From an uncultured Anaerolineae bacterium (lineage in GTDB: Bacteria > Chloroflexota > Anaerolineae > Anaerolineales > Villigracilaceae): 64,000 nucleotides of DNA. Positions 4,202-20,311 of this stretch are shown piece by piece (position 1 is the stretch's first letter; every line of letters begins with the position of its first letter). The stretch covers positions 1-64,000 of the forward strand of contig CAIJPN010000103.1 in NCBI GenBank assembly GCA_903822545.1. The letters are read 5' to 3'. Under the pieces are notes generated by a model, which did not search any database, had not been told where the DNA came from, and saw only the letters and a program-made list of their open reading frames with translations. The translations under genes and the position numbers were made by a program.

Positions 4202-5029
4202 ATGGCGCAAAAATTTTTTGCGGGATTGTTGATTGGGCTGGGGCTGGCGCTTTTGGTGCTGGGTTTGAGCGGGATTGCGCTGACGTGGATTTACCGCGCC
4301 CCACTGACACAAGCCGCGCTGATGCGCCTGCAAGCAACCGATTCTGAGTTGGAAGTGGCCCAAACCACCCTGGCAGATGCCAAAATTGAGTTGGAACGCA
4401 CACTGCGGCTGGTTGAATCGACCGAAAAAACGATGGCGGCGATGAAAGACCAGCTGGCGCAGGCCAAAATGCTGGCCGGTTCGATGAATGATACGCTCGA
4501 TAAGCAGTTGATTCCCGGCCTGGAAGCCTCGCGCGACAGTATCACAAACATCAAAAAGATGTTAACCGACCTGCGCGCCAGCGTGGCGCAGTTGAATGCC
4601 CTGCCCTTTCTCAATTTTAAGCTGCCGGGTGACGAGATGCTCTCCAGCCTGATCTCGGTGACGAATTCGCTCGATGGCGAAATTGCGCGGGTGCAGCAAC
4701 TGGCCCAAAGCGCCTCCATATTCGCCGGGGATGCCTCGTACCTGATGGGCGGCGACCTGGGCGAGACGCGCAAAAGCCTGGAAAACTTCCTGGCGGTGGT
4801 CAATGACTATAATGGGAAACTTTCCAGCTGGCGGGCGCAACTGGCAGGGTTGATCCAGTCGTTGCCAGCCTGGGTCGATGCCGGGGCGGTCATCCTGACG
4901 ATTTTCCTGCTGTGGTTCAGCCTGTCGCAAGTCAGCATTATCCTGCACGGTTTTTCACTCTGGCGCGGCGTGGATGTGACCATCAGCCTGCGTGATGCGC
5001 TCAAAGCGATGCGGGCAAAGTTTTCATAG
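4202..5029 (+). CDS. Membrane-anchored coiled-coil protein of unknown function
   Basis: 275 residues, family not recognised. A transmembrane segment (about 7-28) is followed by a long heptad-like region (about 40-115) rich in Leu, Glu, Lys and Ala with few Gly or Pro, then a second helical block and a C-terminal transmembrane segment (about 222-245). Both ends would sit in the membrane with the coiled coil exposed, most probably outside. It ends 50 bases before tmk and is probably co-transcribed with it. A structural or scaffolding role is possible, but nothing in the sequence fixes a function. Confidence 0.7.
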   Translation: MAQKFFAGLLIGLGLALLVLGLSGIALTWIYRAPLTQAALMRLQATDSELEVAQTTLADAKIELERTLRLVESTEKTMAAMKDQLAQAKMLAGSMNDTLDKQLIPGLEASRDSITNIKKMLTDLRASVAQLNALPFLNFKLPGDEMLSSLISVTNSLDGEIARVQQLAQSASIFAGDASYLMGGDLGETRKSLENFLAVVNDYNGKLSSWRAQLAGLIQSLPAWVDAGAVILTIFLLWFSLSQVSIILHGFSLWRGVDVTISLRDALKAMRAKFS

Positions 5030-5079
5030 CCCTCGCAGAATCAAGACTTTCGAAATCCATCATCCTTCACGGAGTAATT

Positions 5080-5703
5080 ATGTTCATCACCATCGAAGGC
5101 CCCGAAGGCTCGGGCAAGACATCACACATCAAACCGCTGGCCGAGTGGCTCGGCGCACAAGGATACAGCGTTTTCACCACCCGCGAACCGGGCGGAACAT
5201 CGATTGGCGAGCAAATCCGCGCTGTAATCCATGACCTGGAGAATACCGAGATGCACCCCCGCACCGAAACACTGCTCTACCAGGCCGCCCGCGCCCAGAT
5301 CGTTGAGCAGGTCATCCAGCCGCGCCTGAAGGCCGGTGAAATTGTCTTGTGCGACCGCTATGCCGATTCAACCATCGCCTACCAGGGATATGGGCACCGC
5401 CAACCGCTGGAGCAAATCCTGGGGCTGATCAGCTACGCCACCGGGGGCCTGCTCCCGGAACTGACAGTTTTACTCGACCTGGATGTGGAAATCGGGCTGA
5501 AACGCAAAACCAACCAGGAAGAGTGGAACCGGCTGGATGCGTATACTATCGATTTCCACAAACGGGTGCGGGCGGGCTACCTGGAGATGATCAAACAAGC
5601 CCCGGCGCGCTGGGCGGTGGTGGATGCCAGCCAGCCTTGGGAAGTTGTCCATGCCGGGCTGCGCGCGGCGATTGCCAGGCGGCTGACCCCGGCCCAACCA
5701 TAA
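5080..5703 (+). CDS. tmk: Thymidylate kinase
   Basis: 207 residues, normal length for the family. It has the P-loop GPEGSGKTS (residues 7-15), a 'TREPGGTxIGE' segment, the DRYxDSTIAYQGYG motif that positions dTMP, and a lid region around 145-155. The enzyme phosphorylates dTMP to dTDP with ATP in the cytoplasm and is essential for DNA synthesis. The ATG has a CGGAG ribosome site eight bases upstream. It is followed within 56 bases by the end of the convergent rbs operon; the hairpin between them is a terminator for the opposite strand. Confidence 0.96.
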   Translation: MFITIEGPEGSGKTSHIKPLAEWLGAQGYSVFTTREPGGTSIGEQIRAVIHDLENTEMHPRTETLLYQAARAQIVEQVIQPRLKAGEIVLCDRYADSTIAYQGYGHRQPLEQILGLISYATGGLLPELTVLLDLDVEIGLKRKTNQEEWNRLDAYTIDFHKRVRAGYLEMIKQAPARWAVVDASQPWEVVHAGLRAAIARRLTPAQP

Positions 5704-5737
5704 AAAAAGATACCCGCCTCGTCACAGGACAGGTATC
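5702..5737 (-). terminator. Rho-independent terminator of the rbs operon
   Basis: Read on the minus strand after the last rbs permease: the arms GATACC/GGTATC extend to about ten pairs with two wobbles, followed by seven T (5702-5708). It lies about 20 bases after the permease stop. Confidence 0.7.
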
Positions 5738-5758
5738 CAGGAATGAAGAATCACAGGC

Positions 5759-6700
5759 TCATTTCAAGCGCTGCTTCATCACATAATCCAAAACCACCGC
5801 CACAATAAAAACCAGCCCTTTGATGACCTGTTGATTGTACGACGGCACTTCCAGCAGGTTCAAGCCGTTGGACAGGATGCCGACGATGAATGTTCCGGTC
5901 ACCGCGCCGACGACTGACCCGGCCCCGCCAGAGAGACTCGCGCCGCCCAGCACGGAGGCCGCAATGGCATCCAGCTCCAGGCCGGTGCCGCTGTTGGGCT
6001 GCGCCGACCACAGCCGGGCAGTCAGCAGCAGGCCGGTCAGACCAGCGCACAGGGCGCTGATGACGTAGACGCCAAACTTCACTTTCGCGGGGGAAATCCC
6101 GGCCAGGCGCGAAGTCTCCTCGCCGCCGCCAACTGCAAAGATGTAGTTCCCAAACAGGGAGCGGTGCAAAATCACATAGGTGACAAGCGCCACAAAAACC
6201 AGCACAAAGATCGGCACGGGAATTTTCCCCAGCTCACTGGCCCAGAAAGTGAACTGCTCATCGAGACCAGAGATCGGCTTGCCCTGGGTGTAGACCAGCG
6301 TCAGGCCGCGCGCCGCCGCCATCGTGGCGAGAGTCGCCACAAAAGGCGGGATGCGCCCCCAGACGATCATAGCCGCATTGACCAGCCCGACCGCCGCAGC
6401 CGCCGCCAGCGCCAGCAGCATGGCCGGGTAAGTCCCCAGCCCGCTGCGCGTGGCCAGCCCGGCGGCCAGCGCCCCAGCCAGCGCCGCGACCGAGCCTACC
6501 GACAGGTCGACCCCGCCGGTGATCAGCGCAAACGTCATCCCGATGGCCGTGATGGCGATCATCGAGACTTGCAGGGCCACCGTCAGCAGGTTGTTGCCGG
6601 TCAAAAAATCGGGGGAGAGCAGCGTCAGCGGGATCGCCAGCAGGAACAGGATGACCAGCCCACTATTCGCGCGCGTAAAATTGAGAATCGTCTGTTTCAT
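5759..6700 (-). CDS. rbsC: Ribose-type ABC transporter permease (second copy)
   Basis: 313 residues, a polytopic permease of the RbsC/BPD_transp_2 family. It has the conserved opening 'LLTVALQVSMIAITAIGMTFALITGGVDLSVGS' pattern, PPFVATLATM and the C-terminal 'LxGGASLSGGAGSVVGAVTGTFIVGIL' pattern. It forms part of the membrane channel for pentose import. It is the last gene of the operon, three bases after rbsA. A second permease with the same motifs lies at 10177-11148, so the importer may use a heterodimeric channel, or the two may serve different binding domains. The substrate is probably ribose, judged from rbsD and rbsK in the operon. Confidence 0.92.
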   Translation of the reverse strand: MKQTILNFTRANSGLVILFLLAIPLTLLSPDFLTGNNLLTVALQVSMIAITAIGMTFALITGGVDLSVGSVAALAGALAAGLATRSGLGTYPAMLLALAAAAAVGLVNAAMIVWGRIPPFVATLATMAAARGLTLVYTQGKPISGLDEQFTFWASELGKIPVPIFVLVFVALVTYVILHRSLFGNYIFAVGGGEETSRLAGISPAKVKFGVYVISALCAGLTGLLLTARLWSAQPNSGTGLELDAIAASVLGGASLSGGAGSVVGAVTGTFIVGILSNGLNLLEVPSYNQQVIKGLVFIVAVVLDYVMKQRLK

Positions 6701-6703
6701 GGG

Positions 6704-8206
6704 TTATCCTGCCGCCAGTTGGCCGGTCGCCGCCTGCATAATGCGATCCTGGCTGGCTTCGGCGCGGCTGAATTCGGCCATCAGGCGGCCCTCGCGCATC
6801 ACCAAAATCCGGTCGCTGACGCCCAAAATCTCGGGCAGCTCCGAAGAAATCATCAAAATCGCCATGCCTTTGGCCGCCAGCTCGCTCATCAGCGTGTGGA
6901 TTTCGGCCTTCGAGGCCACATCAATGCCGCGTGTGGGCTCATCCAGGATCAAAACCTGCGGGTTCACGGCCAGCCAGCGCGCAATGATCACTTTTTGCTG
7001 GTTGCCGCCCGAAAGGTTGCGCACCTTTTGCTCCAGGTTGGGCGTGCGAATGGTCAGCTGTGTCACCGCGCCGCGCATCCAGGCATCCACTTTTGAATAC
7101 AGGATGAAGCCCAACTGCGCCAGCTTCTCGAACAACAGCACCGAGGCGTTCGAACGCACACTTTGGCCCAGGAAAAGGCCCTGCGCCTTGCGATCCTCCG
7201 TTACCAGGCCGATTCCCAGCCGGATCGCTTCCTCGGGCGAGTGCAGATGAACGATCCGCCCTGCCAGCTTGATCTCGCCATGATCGAGCGGGTCGGCCCC
7301 GAACAGGATACGCGCCACCTCGGTGCGCCCCGAACCGACCAGCCCCGCCAACCCGACAATTTCCCCGCGCCGCAGGCTGAAACTGACATCCCTGACTCGT
7401 TTCCCGCTGCGCAGTTCACGCGCATCGAGAATTACATCGCCAATTTCGGCCTGTTTCTTGGGGAAGAAATCTTTCAGTTCACGTCCCACCATCATCTGCA
7501 CCACGGTCTGGATGGTTAAATCTTTGGTGGGGGTTACGCCCACCAGCTGCCCATCGCGCATCACCGCCACCCGGTCTGAGAGATTGAAAATCTCCTCCAT
7601 GCGGTGCGAGATGTAGATGAGAGTCACGCCTTGTTCGCGCAGAGAACGCATCAGCGCGAACAAAATATCCGATTCGCGTTCACTCAAGGCGCTGGTTGGC
7701 TCATCAAGAATGATGACCCGGGATTGGAATGAAATCGCCTTGGCAATTTCCACCATCTGGCGCTGGGCAATCGAAAGATCAGAGATAAGTGCAGTTACAG
7801 GGAAATCCAGCCCCAGTTGGTCGATCAAAGCCTGGGCTTGTATCACCATCTTTTTGGTATCCACCAGCAGCCCCGCGGCCAGGCGCGGTTCGCGTCCCAG
7901 GAAAATATTCTGCGCCACCGTCATCTGCGGGATGAGCGCCAGTTCCTGGTGGATCATGGCAATGCCCAGTTCCTGTGCGCGGCGCGGCGAGGTGATGTTC
8001 ACTTCCACGCCATCCAGCCAGATTTTGCCCGAATCCGCCGGGAACGAGCCGCTCAGGATGTTCATGAGCGTGCTTTTCCCTGCGCCATTTTCACCGGCCA
8101 GCGCCAGGATCTCGCCCGGATATGCTTCCAGGCTGACATCCTGCACGGCCAGCACGCCCGGGAAGGATTTGACGATATGTTCCAGTTGCAGACGAGAAGG
8201 GGTCAT
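6704..8206 (-). CDS. rbsA: Ribose-type ABC transporter ATPase (double cassette)
   Basis: 500 residues with two fused ABC cassettes, as usual for RbsA/MglA. The first has Walker A GENGAGKST (38-46), signature LSIAQRQ and Walker B VIILDEPTSAL. The second has a degenerate P-loop (GLVGSGRTE), a clean LSGGNQQK signature and VLILDEPTRGID. This asymmetry is normal in the family. It powers sugar uptake at the inner face of the membrane. The gene follows the binding-protein gene after a strong intercistronic hairpin. Its own ribosome site is poor (CCTTCAAAAAT before ATG), which would keep ATPase levels below those of the binding protein. Confidence 0.95.
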   Translation of the reverse strand: MTPSRLQLEHIVKSFPGVLAVQDVSLEAYPGEILALAGENGAGKSTLMNILSGSFPADSGKIWLDGVEVNITSPRRAQELGIAMIHQELALIPQMTVAQNIFLGREPRLAAGLLVDTKKMVIQAQALIDQLGLDFPVTALISDLSIAQRQMVEIAKAISFQSRVIILDEPTSALSERESDILFALMRSLREQGVTLIYISHRMEEIFNLSDRVAVMRDGQLVGVTPTKDLTIQTVVQMMVGRELKDFFPKKQAEIGDVILDARELRSGKRVRDVSFSLRRGEIVGLAGLVGSGRTEVARILFGADPLDHGEIKLAGRIVHLHSPEEAIRLGIGLVTEDRKAQGLFLGQSVRSNASVLLFEKLAQLGFILYSKVDAWMRGAVTQLTIRTPNLEQKVRNLSGGNQQKVIIARWLAVNPQVLILDEPTRGIDVASKAEIHTLMSELAAKGMAILMISSELPEILGVSDRILVMREGRLMAEFSRAEASQDRIMQAATGQLAAG

Positions 8207-8219
8207 ATTTTTGAAGGAT

Positions 8220-8244
8220 GCCCCCGGCGCATAACGCCGGGGGC
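8220..8244 (-). promoter_or_regulatory. Intercistronic hairpin between rbsB and rbsA
   Basis: Perfect 10-bp GC-rich stem (gcccccggcg / cgccgggggc) with a five-base loop. No T-run follows on the minus strand, so it looks like an mRNA-stabilising or processing element that protects the upstream binding-protein message rather than a full terminator. Confidence 0.7.
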
Positions 8245-8259
8245 ATAAAAATCAGGGAA

Positions 8260-10044
8260 TTACTTGGTGACGAGCGACAGCGGAACGGGGATGTTCTTTT
8301 CGACAGTTTCGCCGTTCAAGAACTTGAGGGCAGATTCCACGCCCAGGCGGCCAATTTCGGCGGGCTGCTGGGCCACGGTGGCGGCCAGTGTGCCAGCCTG
8401 GACGGCGGCGACAGCGTCATCCACAGCGTCGAAGCCGACGAAGATGATGCCGGTGCGGCCAGCGGCCTCAGCAGCCTGGATCGCGCCCAGGATCATTTCG
8501 TCATTATGAGCAAAGACAGCGGCGATTTCGGGCTGGGCCTGGAGAATGTTCTCGAAGACGCTCAGGCCTTCATCGCGGTTGAAGTTGGCAGTCTGCTGGG
8601 CAACGATGGGGGCATCTTTGCAGCTGGCAGCCATGTAATCGTTGAAGCCCTGTCCACGGTCACGGGCAGCAGAAGTGCCGGCGATGCCTTGCAGTTCCAC
8701 GACATTGCCCTTGCCAGCGATGGCTTTGCACAGGAATTCAGCGGCCATCTGGCCACCAGCGACGTTGTCAGAAGCGACATGGGCAACCACTTCGCCGCCA
8801 TTCGCGCCACGATCCACGGTGAAGACCGGGATGCCGGCGGCGTTGGCTTTCTGGATGGCGGGCACAACTGCGTCAGAGTCGGTCGGGTTGATCAGGATGG
8901 CATCGACCTTCTTGGTGATCAGGTCTTCGATCCCGGCAACCATCTTGGCCGAGTCGTCCTGGGCATCCACAACGATGAGCTTCGCGCCAGCGGCATCAGC
9001 AGCGGCCTGGGCGCCATCCTTGAGGGTGACAAAGAACGGGTTGTTCAGGGTGGAAAGCACCAGCCCGAGGGTGACTTCTTTCGCGGCGGGCTCGGCAGGC
9101 GGGGTCACACCGAGCGATTCGGCGGTGACGAGCGACAGCGGAACGGGGATGTTCTTTTCGACAGTTTCGCCATTCAGCACTTTGACGGCGGCTTCCACAC
9201 CCAGGCGGCCAATTTCGGCGGGCTGCTGGGCCACGGTGGCGGCCAGTTTGCCATCTTTGACAGCCTGGACGGCGTCATCGACAGCGTCAAAACCGACGAA
9301 AACGATGCCGGTGCGGCCAGCGGCTTCAGCAGCCTGGACAGCGCCGAGGATCATTTCATCATTGTGGGCGAAAACACCGGCGATTTCGGGCTGGGCCTGG
9401 AGAATGTTCTCAAAGACACTCAAGCCTTCATCGCGGTTGAAGTTGGCGGTCTGCTGGGCCACGATGGGGGCATCTTTGCAGCTGGCAGCCATGTAATCGT
9501 TGAAGCCCTGGCCACGGTCACGGGCAGCGGAAGTGCCGGCAATGCCTTGCAGTTCAACCACATTGCCTTTGCCGCCAATGGTCTTGCACAGGAATTCGGC
9601 AGCCATCTGGCCACCGGCGACGTTGTCAGAAGCGACATGCGCAACCACTTCGCCGCCATTCGCGCCGCGATCCACAGTGAAAACCGGGATCTTGGCTTCG
9701 TTGGCCTTCTGGATGGCAGGCACAACCGCGTCAGAGTCGGTCGGGTTGATCAGGATGGCATCGACCTTCTTGGTGATCAGGTCTTCAATGCCAGCGGTCA
9801 TCTTGGCCGAGTCGTCCTGGGCATCCACAACGATGAGCTTCACGCCAGCGGCGTCGGCGGCTTTTTGGGCGCCATCTTTGAGGGTGACAAAGAACGGGTT
9901 GTTCAGGGTGGAAAGCACCAGCCCGAGGGTTTTCTCAGTCGGCTGGGCGGCAGGCTGCTCAGTAACCGGGGCCGGGCTTCCGCAAGCGGAAAGCACAATG
10001 GCAGCAAGCATGAGCAGGCTGAACAGAGGGGTAATGCGTTTCAT
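8260..10044 (-). CDS. rbsB: Fused tandem ribose-binding lipoprotein (RbsB-RbsB)
   Basis: 594 residues, about twice the family's usual length. The signal peptide ends at Cys21 (LSAC). Two complete periplasmic-binding-protein type 1 domains follow: residues 39-307 and 325-593. Aligned without gaps they differ at 17 of 269 positions (about 94% identity). Both contain LGLVLSTLNNPFF, the VDxxDD segment, LINPTDSDAVVP, TVDRGANGG and the HNDEMILGA hinge region. The joining peptide (308-324, Ala/Pro/Glu-rich) resembles the spacer after the lipid anchor, so the second copy kept its linker but lost its signal peptide. It is preceded by AAAGGAG. It binds the sugar outside and delivers it to RbsC. Two binding sites per anchored molecule, possibly one per permease type, is my inference. 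Confidence 0.93.
   Translation of the reverse strand: MKRITPLFSLLMLAAIVLSACGSPAPVTEQPAAQPTEKTLGLVLSTLNNPFFVTLKDGAQKAADAAGVKLIVVDAQDDSAKMTAGIEDLITKKVDAILINPTDSDAVVPAIQKANEAKIPVFTVDRGANGGEVVAHVASDNVAGGQMAAEFLCKTIGGKGNVVELQGIAGTSAARDRGQGFNDYMAASCKDAPIVAQQTANFNRDEGLSVFENILQAQPEIAGVFAHNDEMILGAVQAAEAAGRTGIVFVGFDAVDDAVQAVKDGKLAATVAQQPAEIGRLGVEAAVKVLNGETVEKNIPVPLSLVTAESLGVTPPAEPAAKEVTLGLVLSTLNNPFFVTLKDGAQAAADAAGAKLIVVDAQDDSAKMVAGIEDLITKKVDAILINPTDSDAVVPAIQKANAAGIPVFTVDRGANGGEVVAHVASDNVAGGQMAAEFLCKAIAGKGNVVELQGIAGTSAARDRGQGFNDYMAASCKDAPIVAQQTANFNRDEGLSVFENILQAQPEIAAVFAHNDEMILGAIQAAEAAGRTGIIFVGFDAVDDAVAAVQAGTLAATVAQQPAEIGRLGVESALKFLNGETVEKNIPVPLSLVTK
8266..9072 (-). repeat. Domain repeat 2 of the rbsB fusion
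   Basis: 807 bases encoding residues 325-593. It pairs without gaps with 9124-9930, offset 858 bases, and is closely similar at DNA level too, pointing to a recent internal duplication or gene conversion. Confidence 0.95.
9124..9930 (-). repeat. Domain repeat 1 of the rbsB fusion
   Basis: 807 bases encoding residues 39-307, the partner of 8266-9072. The substitutions cluster at surface-type positions (Lys, Glu, Asp or Gln to Ala, Gly or Thr) and near the domain end. Confidence 0.95.
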
Positions 10045-10122
10045 TTTCTACTCCTTTAGGATTGTTTGATAAGCGGGATAAATTTGGCTTTATCCTGCTC
10101 TGATACAAAATTTATTTCGGCG

Positions 10123-10170
10123 CTCCCGTTTTTATGGGTCGCCCCTGCGGGGTTTCACACCCAAACGGGA
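10123..10170. repeat. Dispersed palindromic repeat, copy 1, inside the rbs operon
   Basis: Outer arms ctcccgttt / aaacggga enclose a 'cgcccctgcggggtttcacacc' core. A similar element lies at 20824-20884. It occupies most of the 132-base gap between rbsC and rbsB and can fold into a hairpin in the mRNA. Confidence 0.6.
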
Positions 10171-10176
10171 AAGCCA

Positions 10177-11148
10177 TTATTTCCTGGTGGGATTGATGGC
10201 CTTATAAAACAGCAAAGCCAGGGCAATCACCACGCCTTTGACAACCTGCTCCCACAGCGGGGAAACGTTCAGCAGGTTAAGTCCGTTATTCAAGGTTTCG
10301 ATCAGGATGGTGCCGAGCAGCGTACCGAGCAAGCCGCCTTCTCCACCCGAAAAGCTGGTTCCGCCAACCACAACCGCCGCGATGGCGTTGAATTCGTAAC
10401 CCGCGCCGATTACCGGCTGGGCAGAATCGAGCCGCGCGATCAGGATCAGCCCGGCCAGGGCGGCGCAGACGCCGGAAATCATGTAAACCAGCACGATCAT
10501 CTGGCGCGTATTGACGCCGGCCAGCCGCGCCGCGACCGGATTGTCACCGATCAGGTACACGTACTCGCCAAAGCGGGTGCGATTCAAAACAATCGCGGCC
10601 AGCACGAACACAATCACCGCCACAACAATCGGCATGGGAACCGGCCCGAGCGAGGCCGTGCCAATAAAACGGAAGGCATCTGGCAGCCCGGTGAAAGGCT
10701 TTCCCTGGGTATACATCAGCGTCAGGCCGCGTCCCACCGTCAGCATCCCCAGCGTGGCGATGAAAGGCGGGATATTCCCGCGCGTGATCATCAGCCCGTT
10801 GACCATGCCCATCAGCGCGCCGATGCCAAGCGCCAGCAGGATACCCAGCGGAACCGGCAGCCCCTGTTTGAGCAAATCGGCGGTGATGACAGCTGAAAGC
10901 GCCAGGATGGAGCCGACTGAAAGGTCAATCCCGGCGGTCAGGATGACCAGCGTCATGCCCACCGCCACAATCCCATTGATAGTGGCCTGCCGGAAAATGT
11001 TGACCTGGTTAGAAACGGTCAGAAATCGGTCAGAGAGCAGCGAAAGCCCCACTGCCAGCGCAGCGTATACCAGCGCCAGCCCAAAGCGCTGCAACAGCAC
11101 GCTCCAGTTGACGCCTTCGGGACGGGGTTGCGCGGCCCGCGTGGTCAT
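10177..11148 (-). CDS. rbsC: Ribose-type ABC transporter permease (first copy)
   Basis: 323 residues of the same RbsC family as the permease at 5759-6700. It shows 'NIFRQATINGIVAVGMTLVILTAGIDLSVGS', TRGNIPPFIATLGM and a C-terminal GGTSFSGGEGG motif. Its ATG follows the rbsD stop directly (TAAATG). A 132-base gap filled by a dispersed repeat separates it from the binding-protein gene. It differs clearly from the second permease, so the pair is an old paralogy, unlike the recent duplication within rbsB. Confidence 0.93.
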   Translation of the reverse strand: MTTRAAQPRPEGVNWSVLLQRFGLALVYAALAVGLSLLSDRFLTVSNQVNIFRQATINGIVAVGMTLVILTAGIDLSVGSILALSAVITADLLKQGLPVPLGILLALGIGALMGMVNGLMITRGNIPPFIATLGMLTVGRGLTLMYTQGKPFTGLPDAFRFIGTASLGPVPMPIVVAVIVFVLAAIVLNRTRFGEYVYLIGDNPVAARLAGVNTRQMIVLVYMISGVCAALAGLILIARLDSAQPVIGAGYEFNAIAAVVVGGTSFSGGEGGLLGTLLGTILIETLNNGLNLLNVSPLWEQVVKGVVIALALLFYKAINPTRK

Positions 11149-11544
11149 TTAGAACACCACCCCAGAGCACAAAATCACGTTGGCATACGGGGCAAACTCG
11201 CCGGTGCGCACCACGGCGCGCGCATCGTGGGTGATCTCCTTGAACTGGCTGTGCGGCACAAATTCCAGCGGCACGCCCGGCAGGAGCGCCTTCACCGCCT
11301 CCAAAAACTGCGGGTTGCGCGCCTGCACTTCCTCTGCCAGGATGGCTTTTTCGACCTTCATCTCTTCCAAAATCACGCCCAGGGTCTCCACCGCGCCGGG
11401 TACGCCCTTCGTCAGCGCCAGGTCAATGCGCTCAGTTTCGGCTGGGATGGGCAGGCCCGCGTCAGCCACCACCAGCATATCGGTGTGGCCCAGGGTGGCG
11501 ATGGTGTATGAAAGTTCAGCGTTCAATAGTGTTGTTTTTTTCAT
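11149..11544 (-). CDS. rbsD: D-ribose pyranase
   Basis: 131 residues, full length for RbsD. It starts KKTTLLNAELSYTIATLGHTD, with the family His in GHTD, continues VADAGLPIP, and has the C-terminal 'FAPYANVILCSGVVF' strand. It interconverts the pyranose and furanose forms of ribose so that the kinase receives its substrate. The start overlaps the rbsK stop (ATGA) and the stop abuts the permease start. Its presence is the best evidence that this importer handles ribose rather than another sugar. Confidence 0.95.
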   Translation of the reverse strand: MKKTTLLNAELSYTIATLGHTDMLVVADAGLPIPAETERIDLALTKGVPGAVETLGVILEEMKVEKAILAEEVQARNPQFLEAVKALLPGVPLEFVPHSQFKEITHDARAVVRTGEFAPYANVILCSGVVF

Positions 11545-12449
11545 TTTTTGTCTCCAAGGAATTCATCCACTTCGCGGCGCAGCGGCAGCGAGGGCTGCGC
11601 CCCAGGACGTGTGACCGAAAGGGCCGCGGCAGCATTTCCCAGGCGGGCGGCAGCTTCCAGCCCCAGGCCCTCGGCCAGGCCGGTGGCAAATGCGCCCACA
11701 AAAGCATCCCCGGCAGCGACCGTATCCACCGCTTTGACCGGGTAGGCCGGGATGTGCGTGCGCTGGCCGCCCGCAACCAGCAGCGCGCCCTGTTCACCCA
11801 GTGTGATGATCAGGTTGCGCACACCCAGCGCCAGCAGTTTTTCGATGGCGGCCTCCAGCGTATCGGTTCCGGCAATCTGCATCGCTTCGCGCTCGTTGGG
11901 GATGAAATAATCGACCTTTGACAGGATTTCCGCGCCGAGGGGCTGGGCCGGGGCCGGATTCAAGACGACCCGTATGCCTTGTTGCGCTGCCAGGGCAATC
12001 GCCTCGCTGACGGTTTCCAGCGGGCTTTCCAGCTGGGTGACGAGCACATCAGCGTCAGAAAAAGCCGCTTTGGCGGTATGCAGGTGCCAGGGCGAGAGCG
12101 AGAGATTCGCGCCCGAGGCCACCACAATCGTGTTGCGGCCTTCCGCATCCACCGTGATCAGGGCAATGCCCGTCGCTTCGGCTTTTTCCACCGAAATGTG
12201 GCTGGTGTCGATGCCATCCTGCGCAGCCACTTTGCACAGTTCCGCGCCAAACCCGTCCTCACCCACACAGCCGATCATGCGGACATGCGCGCCCATGCGC
12301 GCGGCGGCGACAGCCTGGTTGGCGCCCTTGCCGCCGGGGAAGGTGGCAAACCTGCCGCCCAAAATCGTCTCGCCAATTTGCGGATGGCGTGGGGCGTTGA
12401 CGACCAGATCCATGTTAAGACTGCCAACTACGATAATATTTCCATTCAC
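11541..12449 (-). CDS. rbsK: Ribokinase
   Basis: 302 residues, PfkB family. It shows the N-terminal GSLNMDLVV, the substrate-binding FPGGKGANQAVAAARMG motif and the C-terminal catalytic DTVAAGDAFVGAFA, where Asp is the base and the family's usual GAGD reads AAGD. It phosphorylates ribose to ribose-5-phosphate. The start is GTG at 12449 with GGAGG six bases upstream, overlapping the regulator stop as GTGA. It therefore depends on translation of rbsR. Downstream it overlaps rbsD by four bases. Confidence 0.95.
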   Translation of the reverse strand: MNGNIIVVGSLNMDLVVNAPRHPQIGETILGGRFATFPGGKGANQAVAAARMGAHVRMIGCVGEDGFGAELCKVAAQDGIDTSHISVEKAEATGIALITVDAEGRNTIVVASGANLSLSPWHLHTAKAAFSDADVLVTQLESPLETVSEAIALAAQQGIRVVLNPAPAQPLGAEILSKVDYFIPNEREAMQIAGTDTLEAAIEKLLALGVRNLIITLGEQGALLVAGGQRTHIPAYPVKAVDTVAAGDAFVGAFATGLAEGLGLEAAARLGNAAAALSVTRPGAQPSLPLRREVDEFLGDKK

Positions 12450-13447
12450 GAAGGCCTCCGGGTGCTTTCACGGATGACAAGACGGGTGGGAAGGATGTTC
12501 CGGCGCGGCGGCAGGCTGGCATTTTGCATGCGTTCCAGCAGCAGGGTGATGGCCATCTGGCCGATTTCCTGCTTGGGCTGGGCCACGCTGGTCAGGGGCG
12601 GGGTGGTATACGATGCCAGTTCAATGTTGTCGAAGCTGGCGATGGAAACATCTTCGGGGATGCGCAGGCCCAGCTGCGAAGCGGCGCGGATGACGCCGAT
12701 GGACATCATGTCATTGCAAACGAAGATGGCTGTGGGGCGCGGGCTGCGCTGGAAAAGCTGCATGGCGCCTTCGTAGCCGGAGGGGGCATGAAAATCGCCG
12801 CGCACCACCAGGGATTCATCCACAAGAATGCCAGCCTGCTGGAGCGCGGCGCGGTAGCCGGTGACACGTTCGGCGCTGGGGGTGATGTTGGATGGGCCGG
12901 TGATGCAGGCGATGATGCGATGCCCCAGCGAGAGCAAGTGTTGGGTGGCGATCAACCCGCCGTGATGATTGTCAGTGGTGACGGTGTCCAGCTCCAGGCT
13001 GCCCATGTCACGATCAACCACTACCAGTGGCAGGCCTTTTTGGGCAATCTGCGAAAGTGTCTCGCGGTGGTCGCCTGAAGCGACGAAGATCATGCCATCG
13101 ACCTGTTTGTTTTCGAGTACTTCGGTGTACATGCGCTCTTTTTCGGTATCGTTTTCGGTATTACACAAAATGACGCTGTACCCGCGTTCAAAAGCCGCCG
13201 TTTCGATGGCGCGGCCAATCTCGGCGAAGAACGGGTTGGCGCTGTCGGGCAGGATCAGGCCGAGGGTATGGGTTTCGCCGCGACGCAGCGAGCGCGCCAG
13301 GGCGTTTGGGCGGTAGCCTAATTCCTTCATCGCCAGTTCAACCTGCGCTCGAACGGCATCAGATACATAGCGCGTCCCGTTAATGACATGGGACACGGTT
13401 GCCGAAGATACATTTGCGTGTGCTGCGACTTCTTTGATGGTTGCCAT
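12446..13447 (-). CDS. rbsR: LacI-family transcriptional repressor of the rbs operon
   Basis: 333 residues. The N-terminal helix-turn-helix (TIKEVAAHANVSSATVSHVIN) and hinge (ALARSLRRGETHTLGLILPD) are followed by a sugar-binding sensor domain like that of the RbsB family. It is the first gene of the operon, just downstream of a perfect 42-bp palindrome that overlaps the -10 box, so it most likely represses its own transcription and that of all rbs genes, with ribose or a derivative as inducer. The ribosome site is weak, which would keep repressor levels low. Confidence 0.93.
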   Translation of the reverse strand: MATIKEVAAHANVSSATVSHVINGTRYVSDAVRAQVELAMKELGYRPNALARSLRRGETHTLGLILPDSANPFFAEIGRAIETAAFERGYSVILCNTENDTEKERMYTEVLENKQVDGMIFVASGDHRETLSQIAQKGLPLVVVDRDMGSLELDTVTTDNHHGGLIATQHLLSLGHRIIACITGPSNITPSAERVTGYRAALQQAGILVDESLVVRGDFHAPSGYEGAMQLFQRSPRPTAIFVCNDMMSIGVIRAASQLGLRIPEDVSIASFDNIELASYTTPPLTSVAQPKQEIGQMAITLLLERMQNASLPPRRNILPTRLVIRESTRRPS

Positions 13448-13452
13448 AAAAA

Positions 13453-13494
13453 ATACTCTAGTTAATCGTTTACGTAAACGATTAACTAGAGTAT
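13453..13494. promoter_or_regulatory. Perfect 42-bp palindromic LacI-type operator
   Basis: Each 21-base arm is the exact reverse complement of the other. The centre CGTTTACGTAAACG fits LacI/PurR-type sites. The element runs from inside the -10 box to six bases before the rbsR start codon, so bound repressor would block initiation. LacI sites are usually 14-20 bp, so this one is unusually long. Confidence 0.85.
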
Positions 13495-13517
13495 AGGCTT
13501 TTTTTATTCCCTGTCAA
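13490..13517 (-). promoter_or_regulatory. Promoter of the rbs operon
   Basis: On the minus strand a consensus TTGACA (13512-13517) is spaced 16 bases from TATACT (13490-13495). The -10 box overlaps the end of the 42-bp operator. Confidence 0.8.
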
Positions 13518-13606
13518 GAGTCAACAAACACAGCGCAGGGCTTTCTTCAAGTTGTAGTGCGCCGATTCACTCGCTGCGCAACAGCTTGCAGGCAAGATTG
13601 GATCGA

Positions 13607-15139
13607 TTAAGGCAGGTAGTATTCGATGACCAGGGCAGGCCTGTCTCCGGCACTGGATGCGTTACCGCTGAAAAACCGTACATAGTTTGCCATAGCATTG
13701 TTGTTGTCATCCAGTTTAAAGCGGAGGCGAAGTTGCGTTAGCCCAAAACTGCCGGAGTGTTTGTTGATACTGGCAGACAAGTTGGTGAGGTTGAAGCTAT
13801 ACCAGGCGCCTACAGGCAGGGGGCTGAACGGCCCACCGGTTTTCGTGGCCAATGCCTGGAAGTCGCTTCCAACCAGGGGCGCGCTTGCTCCGAAAAAGCC
13901 TTTTTTGGCATCCACCATCAGCCCCTGGAGCAAGGCAAATGGATTGCCAGTACCGCTGACAGCCTGTCGCTTAATCCGGAGCGTGACCCGGGTAATGACA
14001 GCTGTATCGGGGAGACTGGATCCAGTATTGAAGGACAAAATTGCGCGATATTGTTTTTTGGTAGCATCGTCACCCACGTTGAAAGTGGTGGAGAAACTAT
14101 CGATTTTCGCGCCAAAATTGCTGTTTTCACCCGCTTCGAGAATCCAGCCATCTTGCGAACCAACGGATGTGAAGGTTTTTGTTTGTGTGGTAACTGGTAC
14201 GGGTGTGTTGGTGAACGGTACAGGCGTGTTGGTGGACGGTACGGGTGTGTTGGTGGACGGTACGGGCGTATTGGTGGATGGTACAGGCGTGTTTGTGGAT
14301 GGTACGGGTGTGTTTGTGGATGGTACGGGTGTGTTTGTGGATGGTACAGGTGTGTTGGTGGATGGTACGGGTGTGTTGGTTGACGGTATAGGGGTATCGG
14401 TAAACGGCATGGGGGTATCGGTATCAATTGGAGTGGCAGTATCAGGAACAGGGCCTAATAAGGTAAAAGCAGCATCCCCAACTGCAATCCGATACATCAC
14501 ATCGCCTCCCGCGCCTGATGTTTTACGATAATGATTCCCGTCCCCGCCAGTGCCAAACGAGAAACCCCAATCGGGCAGACCACCCTGCTGGGATGCTTCG
14601 ATTTGCACCCAATATTTGACACCAGCAGATGCCGTAAAGGCTGTAGGCAGGGTAAACGTATAAGAGTACATATTGATTGACCCTACCAGTCCAATTGGGG
14701 TTTCGCCGGCATTGCCTCCTACCAAATAATCCACCAGGGGCGGATTTGCAATTGCCGGTTCGGAACCAGCCGGGATGGACGGGTAAATCCTGATGCGAAA
14801 ATCAAGCACCGGACCGCCGAGCCCCACCCTGGCAGGGTCATAGCCGCCAATCCAGTCGATCTGGGTAATGGTTTCGGTAGTTTGGAGGGTGAAATCATCC
14901 CAAATATATTGATCGTAATCGCTGCCATCAGGGTCTCGCCATGATGATTGGAGGAGTTTACCCACCGGGTTTATCGGCTGGGCGTAAATAGGGCCAATGA
15001 AAAGACCCTGGGCATAGATACGCTGTTCATTCTGGGAAACGGGTGCTTTTGCCTGGGCGTCAACATAAAAATATCCCAGGGAAAGCAGTCCCATGAAAAG
15101 TACCAGGATCAAGCTGGGGCGAAATAGTTTGGGTGACAT
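13607..15139 (-). CDS. Secreted protein with Thr/Pro repeat stalk and DNRLRE-like C-terminal domain
   Basis: 510 residues. The ATG at 15139 has AGGAG and precedes a clear signal peptide, so it is chosen over the longer open frame. Residues about 40-225 form a beta-rich domain with a YIWDDFTL / IDWIGGYDPA pattern. A Thr/Pro-rich stalk made of seven-residue STNTPVP repeats follows (about 235-315). The C-terminal ~190 residues resemble DNRLRE-type modules ('YRAILSFNTGSSLPDTAVITRVTLRI'). No catalytic site is recognised; an extracellular structural or carbohydrate-binding role is inferred. It lies downstream of the multicopper oxidase gene after a terminator, so it is probably transcribed separately. 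Confidence 0.75.
   Translation of the reverse strand: MSPKLFRPSLILVLFMGLLSLGYFYVDAQAKAPVSQNEQRIYAQGLFIGPIYAQPINPVGKLLQSSWRDPDGSDYDQYIWDDFTLQTTETITQIDWIGGYDPARVGLGGPVLDFRIRIYPSIPAGSEPAIANPPLVDYLVGGNAGETPIGLVGSINMYSYTFTLPTAFTASAGVKYWVQIEASQQGGLPDWGFSFGTGGDGNHYRKTSGAGGDVMYRIAVGDAAFTLLGPVPDTATPIDTDTPMPFTDTPIPSTNTPVPSTNTPVPSTNTPVPSTNTPVPSTNTPVPSTNTPVPSTNTPVPSTNTPVPFTNTPVPVTTQTKTFTSVGSQDGWILEAGENSNFGAKIDSFSTTFNVGDDATKKQYRAILSFNTGSSLPDTAVITRVTLRIKRQAVSGTGNPFALLQGLMVDAKKGFFGASAPLVGSDFQALATKTGGPFSPLPVGAWYSFNLTNLSASINKHSGSFGLTQLRLRFKLDDNNNAMANYVRFFSGNASSAGDRPALVIEYYLP
14196..14405 (-). repeat. 21-bp tandem repeat encoding the STNTPVP stalk
   Basis: About ten units of 21 bases, with ggta recurring at 14196, 14217, 14238 and on to 14385. 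Units differ only at a few mainly synonymous positions, so stalk length could change by slippage or recombination. Confidence 0.9.
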
Positions 15140-15221
15140 GATTTCGTTTCTCCTAAAAATGTTTTCCCTACCTTGATGATCGAACAAGATTTGGGGTGGT
15201 GACCAGTCTACAAATAAAAGA

Positions 15222-15256
15222 CCTGGCGGCAGCCCCTTCAAGTGACTGCCGCCAGG
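15222..15256 (-). terminator. Rho-independent terminator after the multicopper oxidase
   Basis: 11-bp perfect stem (cctggcggcag / ctgccgccagg) with a 13-base loop. On the minus strand it is followed by a T-rich stretch (TCTTTTATTT). It lies 14 bases past the stop. Confidence 0.85.
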
Positions 15257-15270
15257 CGTAATTCAGATGG

Positions 15271-18200
15271 TTATGGATTGGTGGTGATCGGGAACGGTGT
15301 GGCGTTTACCCAGACCGAGAAGACATACAGACCATTGTTAGAGCGAATGCGGAACCAGTACTTGGTGTTGCGCGCAAGGCCCGTCATGGTGTAGGTCGTC
15401 AGGTTGGCGCCTACGTTCACGGTGGTCAACCCGTTTGTAAAGGTGGCATTGGTAGCCCGCTGGATGGTGAAGCCGGTCTCGTTGTTCGAGTTATCCAGCC
15501 ATTTGAGCACCACAGAACGTGAGTTGCCGCTGTTCGCGCCATTTGTCACTGTGAAGCTGCCAGGGGTTGCCGGGAGGGCAGGCACCAGCACCGGGGCGGC
15601 CACGGCATAAGCCGATGAACCTGCGGGGTTGACTGCCGCAACACGATAGCTGTAGGTTGTGTTCGAGGCTGTGGCGGTGAGGGTCGTGTCGGTGAAGGTT
15701 ACACTGCCGGTGTTGTTGCGGGCAGGAGCTGTGGCTACCTGGGTGAAGTTGATCCCATCGGTAGAACGTTCGATCACGAACCCGTTTTCATTGGTGGCAT
15801 TGTCAGTCCAGGTCAGTTTGATCTGCGGCCCACTCTGGATGTTCGCCAGCAGGTTGGTGGGGGCCAGCGGAGCTGTGCCAACGGCCAGTTCGGCGGTCAT
15901 CGACTGCGCTGTCATGGTCGGGAAGCCCGCGCCGTAACCAACGGTGTTCTGGGCTACCACACGGTAGCGGTATCCAAGGGCGGGGTTGTAGGTGCCTGGC
16001 ACAGTGAAGCTGCGAGTCTGGTGGATGTTCGGCTGGTTCAGCGGTGATTGGACGGTGCCAATTGTGGTCCAGACGCCCTGCCAGTTCATGCTCTGCACTG
16101 CGAAGGCAGTTTCTGTGATCGAGTTGTCGTTCCAGGTCAGTTGCAGTTGGGTTTTGTTGCCGCTGCCGATCACAGTGTAGCTCAATCCATCGGGGCTCAG
16201 GGGCGGCAAGGCCAGGCTCACGGGGCGCATCATGTCCATTTCTTCGTGTGACAGGATGTGGCAGTGGTAAACATATTCCCAGCCGAAGTTCGTGAACTGA
16301 TTGGTGATCGGGGCGGTTGGGTTGCCCTGAGGATCCACATTGTTGAACATTGCGGTGGAGCCAACCGGCATCATCGGGTTCAGCAGCCGGATCGAGTTCG
16401 GGATTTCGAAGGGCACCTGGGGGATGATCGGGCGCAGGGCCACAATGGTGTCTTCCAGCGGCGAGATGCGCACGGTGTCTTTCCAGCCGAGTTCGTTCGC
16501 ATCTGGAGCCAGGATGATGTTATCCCAGGTGACGCGGTTGATAACTTGCACATCGAACAGGTGGAAGTGGATTGGATGGGTATCAACACCGTTGTGAGTG
16601 ATCCGCCATATCTGGGTTCCATCACTGGCTGTTGAAATCGGGGTGACGGAGAGATTATCTTTGGGCAGGTTGGTGCCGTCGATCAACTCTGTCACAGGGT
16701 TGACGTAGGGGTACAGGGTGACGTTCTGCGCGCCGGGAACCGGGGGCTGGGCTTCCAGACCGAGAGTGGCCTGCATACGACCAAATTCATCGAAGTTGGT
16801 CGAGTTCATTTCGTCGTGGATAGCTTTGGGCTGCACCGGCAGGGTCATTTTGGTGGTGGGCGCCAGCAAAGTATTGAAGCCAAATACGCTTGTATCGTTG
16901 ATGCGAACGAGGCCATCGCAGCGCTGCAGGGTGGTGCCGGTGACGTTGCAGTTGCCGCTGCCTGCGAAGGAGGTGCCATAGGCCGAGTTGTAGGCCGATT
17001 GCCCTACGATGATCGGGTGCTGGCTTGATTCGAACACGCCTGTGCCATCGGCATTGTGCCGGAAGGCTGCCTGCAGGCCAGTCAGGTTGAAGGCCGGGGC
17101 CGGGGTGCTGGCCGCAACTTTCACCTGCATCACGGTGCGGGTGTTGGGGCCGTAACCGGGCACAATGGTGGGGGCGCCGTTCGGGCTCAGGTCAGGAGCG
17201 CCGGTGTAGTAGTCGTAGCTTGGGACGCGAGCAGGGAAAGCAGCCGGGGCATCATTGTACAGGATCAGGGTCTGGCCAGCGAATTGCGAGAAGTCCACGA
17301 TCACGTCAGCGCGTTCGGCGGGCGCGACCAGCAGGGAGTGCTTATCCACGTTGCCGACATCGAAGCGGGTCGGGTCGGTGATCCAGGTGGTGACCTGTTG
17401 TCCATCGATCACGACCGGGGCGGGCAGGAAGCCGCCTTCGGTACCGATCTGGATCCAATCTGGGCCAGGCTTGCTGATGGTGGTATCGGGCGTCGGGAAG
17501 ACATTCGGGTCGAGTTGGGCCGCGGCCAGTTCAGCGGCATTGAAGGCAACTTCACTGTCTGTACCGGTGGTCGGGTCAGCCACGTACCATTGCAGGTTGA
17601 AGAAGCGGTCGTTGGCAGCGCTCAAGATGCGCAGGCGGTAAGATTTCGGTTCCACTTCCAGGGTCGGGTAAGCAACACCATTGACAATGGGTGTGTCATT
17701 GAACTGTTCCATGCCGACCGAAATGTTCGGGGTACCCGGGATCTGCTGGGGTTCGCAAAATGGATCGGTCTGGTACTGCCAGGTGGCAGGATCATCAAGG
17801 TTGCAGTTGGGATCGTAATAAGGGTTGGCAATGGGGCCGTAAACAGTGTTGGCAGCCGGGGGCCAGAACCAGGGGCCGTACATCCAGCGGCCATAAGCGC
17901 TCATGCCAGATGGATCGCCAGGGTTCTGGGCAGGCATGTAAACGTGATGGTACCAGAAAGCGCCTTTGGTGCCCCAGCGTGCGGTATCCCAGGCAGGATC
18001 TTGCAGGGCCAGTTGGGCTGCATCGGGGACGAAGGTTTTGTCCTGGATAATCAGCGGAATCTGGTCGGCAGGGATGGTTCCATCGGTGATCAGTTTCTGC
18101 TCTGCGGCATCGGTAATCAGGTAGCCAGCGGCTTCACCGGCGTATACGTTCAGGCGGGTGATGCCCCACGAGTGATCATGGTAGAACATCAGGCGAGCTG

Positions 18201-19905: not shown

Positions 19906-19963
19906 GGTTTCCTCTCTAGACGAATAAAGGATAATACGTGCTTGGGTTGTATTCATGGAGCGA

Positions 19964-20311
19964 TCAAGCGCCCATGGCATGGAACAGGTCTGAGGCGGTA
20001 TTCAGCCCGACCCGGTGTTTGTCGAATACTTCTAAAGTGTTATTCTCAAAGCTGACAGTGATCACCTTCAACTCTGGACAGGTTTGCATCAACAGGGCCG
20101 GGAGCGGCGTAATTGATACATACGCCCCTTCGTAAATGATGACCACATCTGGCTTGTTCTTCTCCACCGCGGCAATGAACACCTGGGCTGATTCGTCTTC
20201 GGTGACATTGATCACATCCCAATCGGTCCGGGTTGACAGGTAGGATGCAACTGCGTCTCCGAGCAAGTCTTTGCGTCTCCACAGGATCACTTTTTTGTTC
20301 ATCGCCATCAT
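19964..20311 (-). CDS. Degenerate receiver-like small protein
   Basis: 115 residues from the ATG at 20311, which has GAGG eight bases upstream. The alternation of strands and helices (KKVILWRRKDLLGDAVASYL, PDVVIIYEGAY, LKVITVSFENN) resembles a response-regulator receiver domain. The usual phosphoryl-accepting Asp at the end of the third strand is replaced (VIIYEG), and no output domain follows. It may be a phosphorylation-independent pseudo-receiver or an unrelated flavodoxin-like fold. It lies 58 bases upstream of the multicopper oxidase on the same strand and could be co-transcribed with it. Function unknown. Confidence 0.6.
   Translation of the reverse strand: MMAMNKKVILWRRKDLLGDAVASYLSTRTDWDVINVTEDESAQVFIAAVEKNKPDVVIIYEGAYVSITPLPALLMQTCPELKVITVSFENNTLEVFDKHRVGLNTASDLFHAMGA

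Follow-up and report, generated by a model that had tools for sequence, protein, structure and literature searches.

How does a ribose-binding protein come to carry its domain twice behind a single lipid anchor, and what keeps the two copies nearly identical? This question is raised by a 594-residue lipoprotein encoded in a 64,000-nucleotide stretch of DNA from an uncultured Anaerolineae bacterium, the whole of which we call the window (GenBank assembly GCA_903822545.1, contig CAIJPN010000103.1, positions 1 to 64,000). RbsB proteins, as described by the NCBIfam model NF007936 and the Pfam family PF13407, usually have a single domain, although the model does not demand this state, and the window protein departs from it with two. 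The original prediction held that the family is normally single-domain. As a general rule this is correct, yet RbsB proteins with two or three domains recur in Chloroflexota.

A tandem RbsB lipoprotein within a ribose operon

The gene occupies positions 8260–10044 of the minus strand, starts with ATG and encodes two ribose-binding domains according to the copy alignment, Pfam and NCBIfam. PF13407 (Peripla_BP_4) matched two stretches of the 594-residue protein and scored 444.7 bits, where 35.1 is the cut-off, and the RbsB equivalog model NF007936 likewise matched two stretches with 682.8 bits against 337. The signal peptide and lipobox (residues 1–21, 9982–10044) were read from the translation, where L18-S19-A20-C21 (LSA-C21) has the form of a lipobox. 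The presumably lipid-anchored cysteine is followed by a spacer rich in Pro, Ala, Gln and Glu (residues 22–38, 9931–9981), delimited by the copy alignment and the pLDDT of the structural model. RbsB domain 1 (residues 39–308, 9121–9930) and RbsB domain 2 (residues 325–594, 8263–9072), each assigned by copy alignment, Pfam, ligand-residue mapping and the model, are connected by the 16-residue linker ESLGVTPPAEPAAKEV (residues 309–324, 9073–9120), which is homologous in seven relatives. All these features lie on the minus strand.

The two domains could be aligned without any gap at an offset of 286 residues (858 nucleotides), with 17 amino-acid differences over the first 269 aligned residues and 18 over 270, a similarity far beyond chance. 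The coding DNA differs at 82 of 810 nucleotides (89.9% identity), and the codon differences comprise 48 synonymous and 18 nonsynonymous ones. We obtained a dN of 0.044 and a dS of 0.344 between the copies; the dN/dS ratio of about 0.13 shows purifying selection on the copies since their last homogenisation. The predicted in-frame duplication is confirmed by the 594-residue open reading frame, which is uninterrupted and has a single signal peptide with its lipobox and a proper linker, and our alignment gave the same counts for the two complete, ungapped domains (17 differences in 269). An antisense open reading frame of 613 amino acids (8218–10059, plus strand) spans the entire tandem gene and could be mistaken for a gene by automatic annotation. 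It has no Pfam match, and we rejected it as a candidate gene; it probably mirrors the codon bias, an effect that the repeat doubles.

The tandem rbsB gene is encoded together with RbsA, RbsC, RbsD and RbsK, in the transcription order lacI-rbsK-rbsD-rbsC1-rbsB-rbsA-rbsC2 on the same strand, and the same gene order was found in relatives having one, two or three RbsB domains. The D-ribose pyranase RbsD (11149–11544; NF008761, 179 against a cut-off of 93) and the ribokinase RbsK (11541–12449; TIGR02152, 357.4 against 299.65) clear the curated cut-offs. For the other genes the best NCBIfam matches are the models of RbsA, RbsC and RbsR, with scores under the strict cut-offs: the RbsA-type double ATPase (6704–8206; PF00005) scored 579.9 of 745, the first RbsC-type permease RbsC1 (10177–11148; PF02653) 294.9 of 398 with the ribose permease model, the second, RbsC2 (5759–6700; PF02653), 263.5 of 398 with the same model, and the RbsR-like LacI-family regulator (12446–13447; PF00356 and PF13377) 332.3 of 531.

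The gap between rbsC1 and rbsB (10045–10176, minus strand) has a strong predicted hairpin fold, with −43.5 kcal/mol and a z of −3.73. It may stabilise the mRNA or act as a partial terminator, setting the RbsB dose in the window's species. The matching gap of five relatives gave no significant fold (z 0.22 to 1.62, with about the last half only for L044), and for this reason we kept the hairpin out of the explanation. Rfam at gathering thresholds gave no match over 5000–14500. Two further proteins are encoded on the minus strand next to the operon: a 544-residue protein (13607–15241) whose central part consists of about ten PVPSTNT-type repeats and which matches DUF7901 toward the N-terminal side, and a 1569-residue protein (15271–19980) that, by the impression from its translation, resembles large secreted proteins of the multicopper-oxidase type with fibronectin-like C-terminal repeats.

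Domain number among the relatives

A scan of 84,980 species genomes was made with exact 8-residue peptides of the query, a procedure that favours near kin, and the best 80 of 85 relatives were kept, representing 79 loci. At least two domains in one frame were found in 31 of the 79 loci, counted from the domain table together with the tails, so that the search for tandem proteins in related genomes suggested with the original prediction was positive. Two complete domains are present in 19 loci, including L080, L100 and L101 from Desulfobacterota, and three complete domains in four (L058, L059, L060 and L062). L051 has two complete domains and the start of a third before the contig end, L055 has two complete domains and a partial one next to masked bases, and six multi-domain frames are cut by a contig end (L063, L066, L067, L073, L074 and L093). 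The remaining 48 loci are single-domain, cut or masked. Among the nearest kin of the window, L044–L050, all seven have two domains.

We also inspected 400 genomes across the phylum, of which 13 had a match at E ≤ 1e-60, three with two domains and ten with one. One of the three is that of the window itself; the others are in G456, whose two domains are both identical to those of L049, and in G406, where the protein belongs to another subfamily. Among the matches listed for 100 relatives of the same family or order, those with at least 45% identity over the domain were cut pieces in the genomes G086 and G098 and a single-domain protein in G074; more distant two-domain frames were present in G076 (40%) and in G056 (locus L019, 38%, cut by the contig end). 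Single-domain genes were found in the one-contig genomes G294 and G322.

Metagenome contigs of relatives frequently end inside this gene, as in L051/L076, L063/L074, L067/L073, L092/L118, L106, L117 and L122, and in four of these cases two contigs belong to one bin. Near-identical tandem copies thus seem to break short-read assemblies, and the architecture is likely to be under-counted in databases.

On a quick protein tree of RbsA and RbsC from 49 loci, 41 of them with a complete domain count, the domain number changes at least ten times, a soft count because some single-domain metagenome loci may represent collapsed near-identical copies, as may be the case for L069 beside L047. These two are sister loci, separated by an RbsA/RbsC path of about 0.03 and having identical leaders and C-terminal tails, with two domains in L047 and one in L069; the contrast reflects either a real contraction or a collapsed assembly. 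Single-domain relatives are frequent and some of them are as close as L069, suggesting that the second domain is dispensable, unless these loci are collapsed assemblies. The many changes on the tree and the close pairs of single- and double-domain loci such as L047/L069 would fit a non-adaptive turnover, in which tandem copies come and go by recombination and are only tolerated. However, all six species of the window's clade have kept two domains across neighbour-gene dS values near or above 1, and both copies are under purifying selection, though this need not mean that the second copy itself is selected for. We consider non-adaptive turnover unlikely as the explanation.

Age of the duplication and homogenisation of the copies

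The linker provides a marker for the age of the duplication. A sequence (A)ESLGVT followed by a Pro-containing stretch is common to the window and L044–L050, with ADSLGVT in L046, and no linker-like tail is present in the six single-domain relatives that could be read to the end (L068, L069, L071, L072, L111 and L121). Two positions of the domain behave in the same manner. In the window, L044, L045, L048, L049 and L050, position 30 is Val in domain 1 and Ala in domain 2 in all six, and position 249 is Val or Ile in domain 1 and Leu in domain 2, again in all six. For comparison of positions 30, 249 and 251, eleven relatives were named, four of which (L076, L077, L087 and L089) were skipped by length; Val is found at both 30 and 249 in L070, which is cut, and in those six relatives that have one domain. 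L046 and L047 have Val at both positions in both domains and lack Ala30 and Leu249. Ala30 and Leu249 are probably derived in domain 2, because the single-domain relatives, L070, L046 and L047 have Val. The shared linker together with Ala30/Leu249 suggests that the duplication is most simply older than the split of the six species; for L046 and L047, which lack these residues, it is the linker that points to the shared duplication.

The synonymous distances were compared within and between genes, keeping in mind that dS values above about 1.5 are near saturation and that saturated pairs were marked with −1. Within-gene dS is 0.04–0.38 in seven of the eight species and 1.8 in L048. Between the window domains and those of each of the other species, dS is at least 0.75 or saturated, and RbsA, RbsC1 and RbsK of the window compared with those of L044, L045, L048, L049 and L050 gave dS of 0.92–3.1 or saturation. 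The sister pair L049/L050 is an exception, in that dS between their first domains (0.23) is no larger than the within-gene dS (0.37 and 0.22), while dS between their second domains is 0.50. A recent duplication in a single lineage is disfavoured for the window's clade by the shared linker, Ala30/Leu249 and the dS of the neighbouring genes set against the low within-gene dS.

In the tree of domain DNA, the copies paired by species in six of the eight cases, the support being 94/93 for the window but no more than 66/75 in the case of L048; the copies of L049 and L050 formed one clade of four and did not pair by gene (p-AU for pairing 0.0013 and 0.061). One clade of all eight first domains was rejected (p-AU 9.5e-55), as was one clade of all second domains (1.1e-12). 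We also searched for unbroken identical runs in 178 codons varying only silently among the 16 domains, using 5,000 shuffles. Four of the eight species had such runs, of 130 codons in L045, 171 in L046, 134 in L047 and 116 in L050 (p 0.0002–0.0004). The differences flank the identical run on both sides in L045 and L050, where the trans-species positions 30 and 249 sit in the flanks that escaped it. In L047 the differences left are mostly on the N-terminal side of the run, and in L046 only at the C-terminal end. No significant conversion tract was found in the window, whose longest silent run among the 178 silent-polymorphic codons is 16 (p 0.53), and none of the runs in L044 (p 0.48), L048 (0.23) and L049 (0.23) was significant; with all polymorphic codons, p was 0.026 for L048 and 0.011 for L049. 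The direction of conversion read position by position in L049/L050 gave a mixed pattern and was set aside.

The copies within a gene are thus closer to each other than orthologous copies of different species in the window's clade although the duplication appears to be shared, which is the signature of concerted evolution; the sister pair L049/L050 taken alone does not have it. One old duplication followed by intragenic homogenisation is, on these comparisons, the best account of the low within-gene dS, and for the window itself we infer homogenisation from the other species. The homogenisation would have occurred either by gene conversion or by expansion to three copies followed by contraction to two, and the three-domain relatives make the latter route plausible. 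The original prediction had offered a recent duplication or continuing gene conversion. The linker, Ala30/Leu249 and the dS values speak against a recent event, and conversion finds support if taken broadly as intragenic homogenisation, although the window has no significant tract.

If each lineage had duplicated its domain independently and recently, no homogenisation would be needed and the low dS would simply date each duplication. The pairing of copies by species in six of eight cases agrees with such a scenario, and so does the absence of the domain-specific residues at 30 and 249 in L046 and L047. Other clades with different linkers (LVQKLTLGLS, P/A-rich or KLYPYT) probably did duplicate separately. 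Within the window's clade, however, six species have one linker and the derived domain 2 residues at 30 and 249 in common, L048 retains copies at a dS of 1.8, and the identical core in L045 and L050 lies between differences remaining on both sides. Independent recent duplication is an improbable explanation for the window protein.

The linkers outside this clade differ in kind. L056, L061, L064, L065, L066, L075 and L093 have direct fusions, the domain matches being only two or three residues apart, L053, L054, L058–L060 and L062 have P/A-rich linkers, and L057 has KLYPYT. These differences among clades suggest several separate origins. L016 and L130, also from Chloroflexota, have tandem RbsB-like copies of 95.2% and 99.6% amino-acid identity. 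They resemble the window protein in having near-identical tandem copies, but are only 40% and 38% identical to it, and this family probably arose separately. In the Desulfobacterota proteins L080, L100 and L101, the two domains are only 28–34% identical, and ligand residues of domain 1 are changed at five of 15 positions in L080 and nine of 15 in L100. No rbsA or rbsC match was found beside L080 (17.7 kb) or L100 (on a 4.9 kb contig). Judged from their sequences, the Desulfobacterota two-domain proteins exemplify the opposite fate, divergence, and they are possibly sensors or carriers of another kind.

Ligand-binding sites and the role of the second domain

The residues that contact ribose in E. 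coli RbsB are S9, N13, F15, F16, N64, D89, R90, S103, I132, R141, F164, N190, F214, D215 and Q235. Residue mapping showed that all 15 are identical in each of the two window domains, and almost every complete domain among the Chloroflexota relatives keeps them too, the exceptions being L115, L120 and L017. Together with the purifying selection, this conservation suggests two working sites of one specificity, and both domains are likely to bind ribose. The argument of the original prediction that an intact frame and linker indicate function is borne out by the dN/dS of the copies and by these contacts. An AlphaFold2 model based on 18 two-domain sequences has two domains at high confidence connected by a weak linker, with pLDDT below 50 at residues 18–34 of the spacer region and residues 317–320 of the linker. 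The pTM of 0.50 suggests that the two domains have no fixed mutual orientation. The best PDB matches are ribose-binding proteins, 2ioy with 62% and 1dbp with 54% identity.

Does each domain serve a partner or a sugar of its own? The gene is flanked by two rbsC genes and positions 30 and 249 stay domain-specific, which would be expected if each domain worked with one of the RbsC permeases, as had also been proposed originally, or bound a different sugar. We counted domains and rbsC genes in 79 proteins, consisting of the window, L015, L017 and 76 of the 79 loci; 17 of the 79 proteins are cut and were set aside. A best domain score below 200 bits with the seed profile led to exclusion, and so was excluded L001, the window's own copy; L016, L018, L019, L101, L117, L122 and weaker loci are thus absent from the counts. 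L015 and L106 seem to represent a single contig end. L123 equals L049 in both domains, and L124, L126 and L127 share the leaders of L068, L072 and L071, so these four are not independent of the genome-scan loci. Among the complete-frame loci, rbsC is present on both sides in 19 of 38 with one domain, 15 of 19 with two and three of five with three, where the loci lacking it on one or both sides include contigs that are too short and loci outside a ribose operon. Two rbsC genes therefore also accompany single-domain RbsB in half of the cases. Moreover, the two domains agree at all 15 ligand residues, and the copies have been kept alike without diverging. The proposal of one site for each permease gains no support from these observations, and a division of labour between the domains seems quite improbable.

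An assembly artefact, be it a chimera or a false repeat, is very unlikely and was rejected: the window belongs to a genome of 237 contigs and the contigs of many metagenome relatives end within the rbsB gene, but the longest in-register exact repeat between the copies is only 59 nucleotides, 66 codon differences separate them, and seven further records (L044–L050) have this two-domain protein, likewise joined by a homologous linker, one of them (L047) from the cultured Thermanaerothrix daxensis strain GNS-1.

We propose that the window lipoprotein would bind the substrate for a CUT2-type ribose importer formed with RbsA, RbsC1 and RbsC2. One in-frame tandem duplication would go back to an ancestor shared by at least six species. 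Its breakpoints presumably lay within the P/A-rich spacer and at the C terminus, judging from the anatomy of the linker. Recombination within the gene would have repeatedly re-equalised the copies, by conversion or by unequal crossing-over that passed through a three-copy state before returning to two copies, and older differences would have survived close to the ends of the domains, where these adjoin unique sequence. Each domain would bind ribose and dock on the permease independently, one at a time. The tandem may thereby double the number of ribose sites on each lipid anchor and for each translation, and more sugar-loaded domains near the pore could mean a higher local concentration. According to PMC9045158, importer binding proteins tend to be produced in excess over the translocator. 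This excess, the ligand residues, the purifying selection, the unfixed orientation of the domains and the example of GlnPQ favour two independent ribose sites per anchor. The original suggestion of a raised local sugar capture by two tethered sites is compatible with this mechanism. As a whole, a lipid-anchored ribose receptor with two sites, derived from one old duplication and repeated intragenic homogenisation, whose domains bind and dock independently for a gain in dosage, is the best explanation and in our judgement a probable one.

A more far-reaching interpretation, which we regard as doubtful, would be that domain number is an evolvable valence, moved among one, two and three by recombination, homogenised by selection and tuning the dosage of sites, together with a handover between RbsC1 and RbsC2. 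If it were true, lineages would tune the ribose-site dosage per lipid anchor with the permease and ATPase genes unchanged, and adjacent domains would hand over at a heterodimeric RbsC1-RbsC2 pore.

Comparison with known systems

Among the matches listed from open papers, we found no tandem RbsB lipoprotein in the literature, the nearest systems being GlnPQ and OpuA, and passages of PMC4052901, on Chloroflexi and ribose regulons, contain nothing on such a protein. E. coli RbsB (1dbp, 2dri) has 53–54% identity to each window domain, all 15 ligand residues and a ribose operon, and RbsB from Thermoanaerobacter tengcongensis (2ioy) has 62% identity to the matched window domain. Both are single-domain proteins, whereas the window lipoprotein has two domains and some of its relatives have three. 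In OpuA from Lactococcus lactis, two binding domains act cooperatively at one transporter, according to PMC11065425, but they are linked to two transmembrane subunits and form no tandem, unlike in the window protein. GlnPQ from L. lactis has a tandem SBD1-SBD2 with a 14-residue linker and domains that are largely independent, as described in PMC8025302. GlnPQ and the window protein therefore share tandem substrate-binding domains on a flexible linker, of 14 and 16 residues, respectively. In GlnPQ, a fusion joins the tandem to the transmembrane domain, and the SBDs differ in specificity. The window tandem, by contrast, is a separate 594-residue lipoprotein with near-identical domains from another binding-protein family, and its permeases are encoded as separate open reading frames.

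Tandem binding domains are hence already known, and what appears to be new is a free, homotypic tandem lipoprotein under probable concerted evolution. It offers a well-marked bacterial case of concerted evolution within a single transporter gene, in which the shared linker and the trans-species residues give the duplication an age that does not depend on the homogenised copies. The natural series of one, two and three near-identical domains beside the same importer genes also provides a test for the role of extra binding domains, free of the change in specificity seen in GlnPQ.
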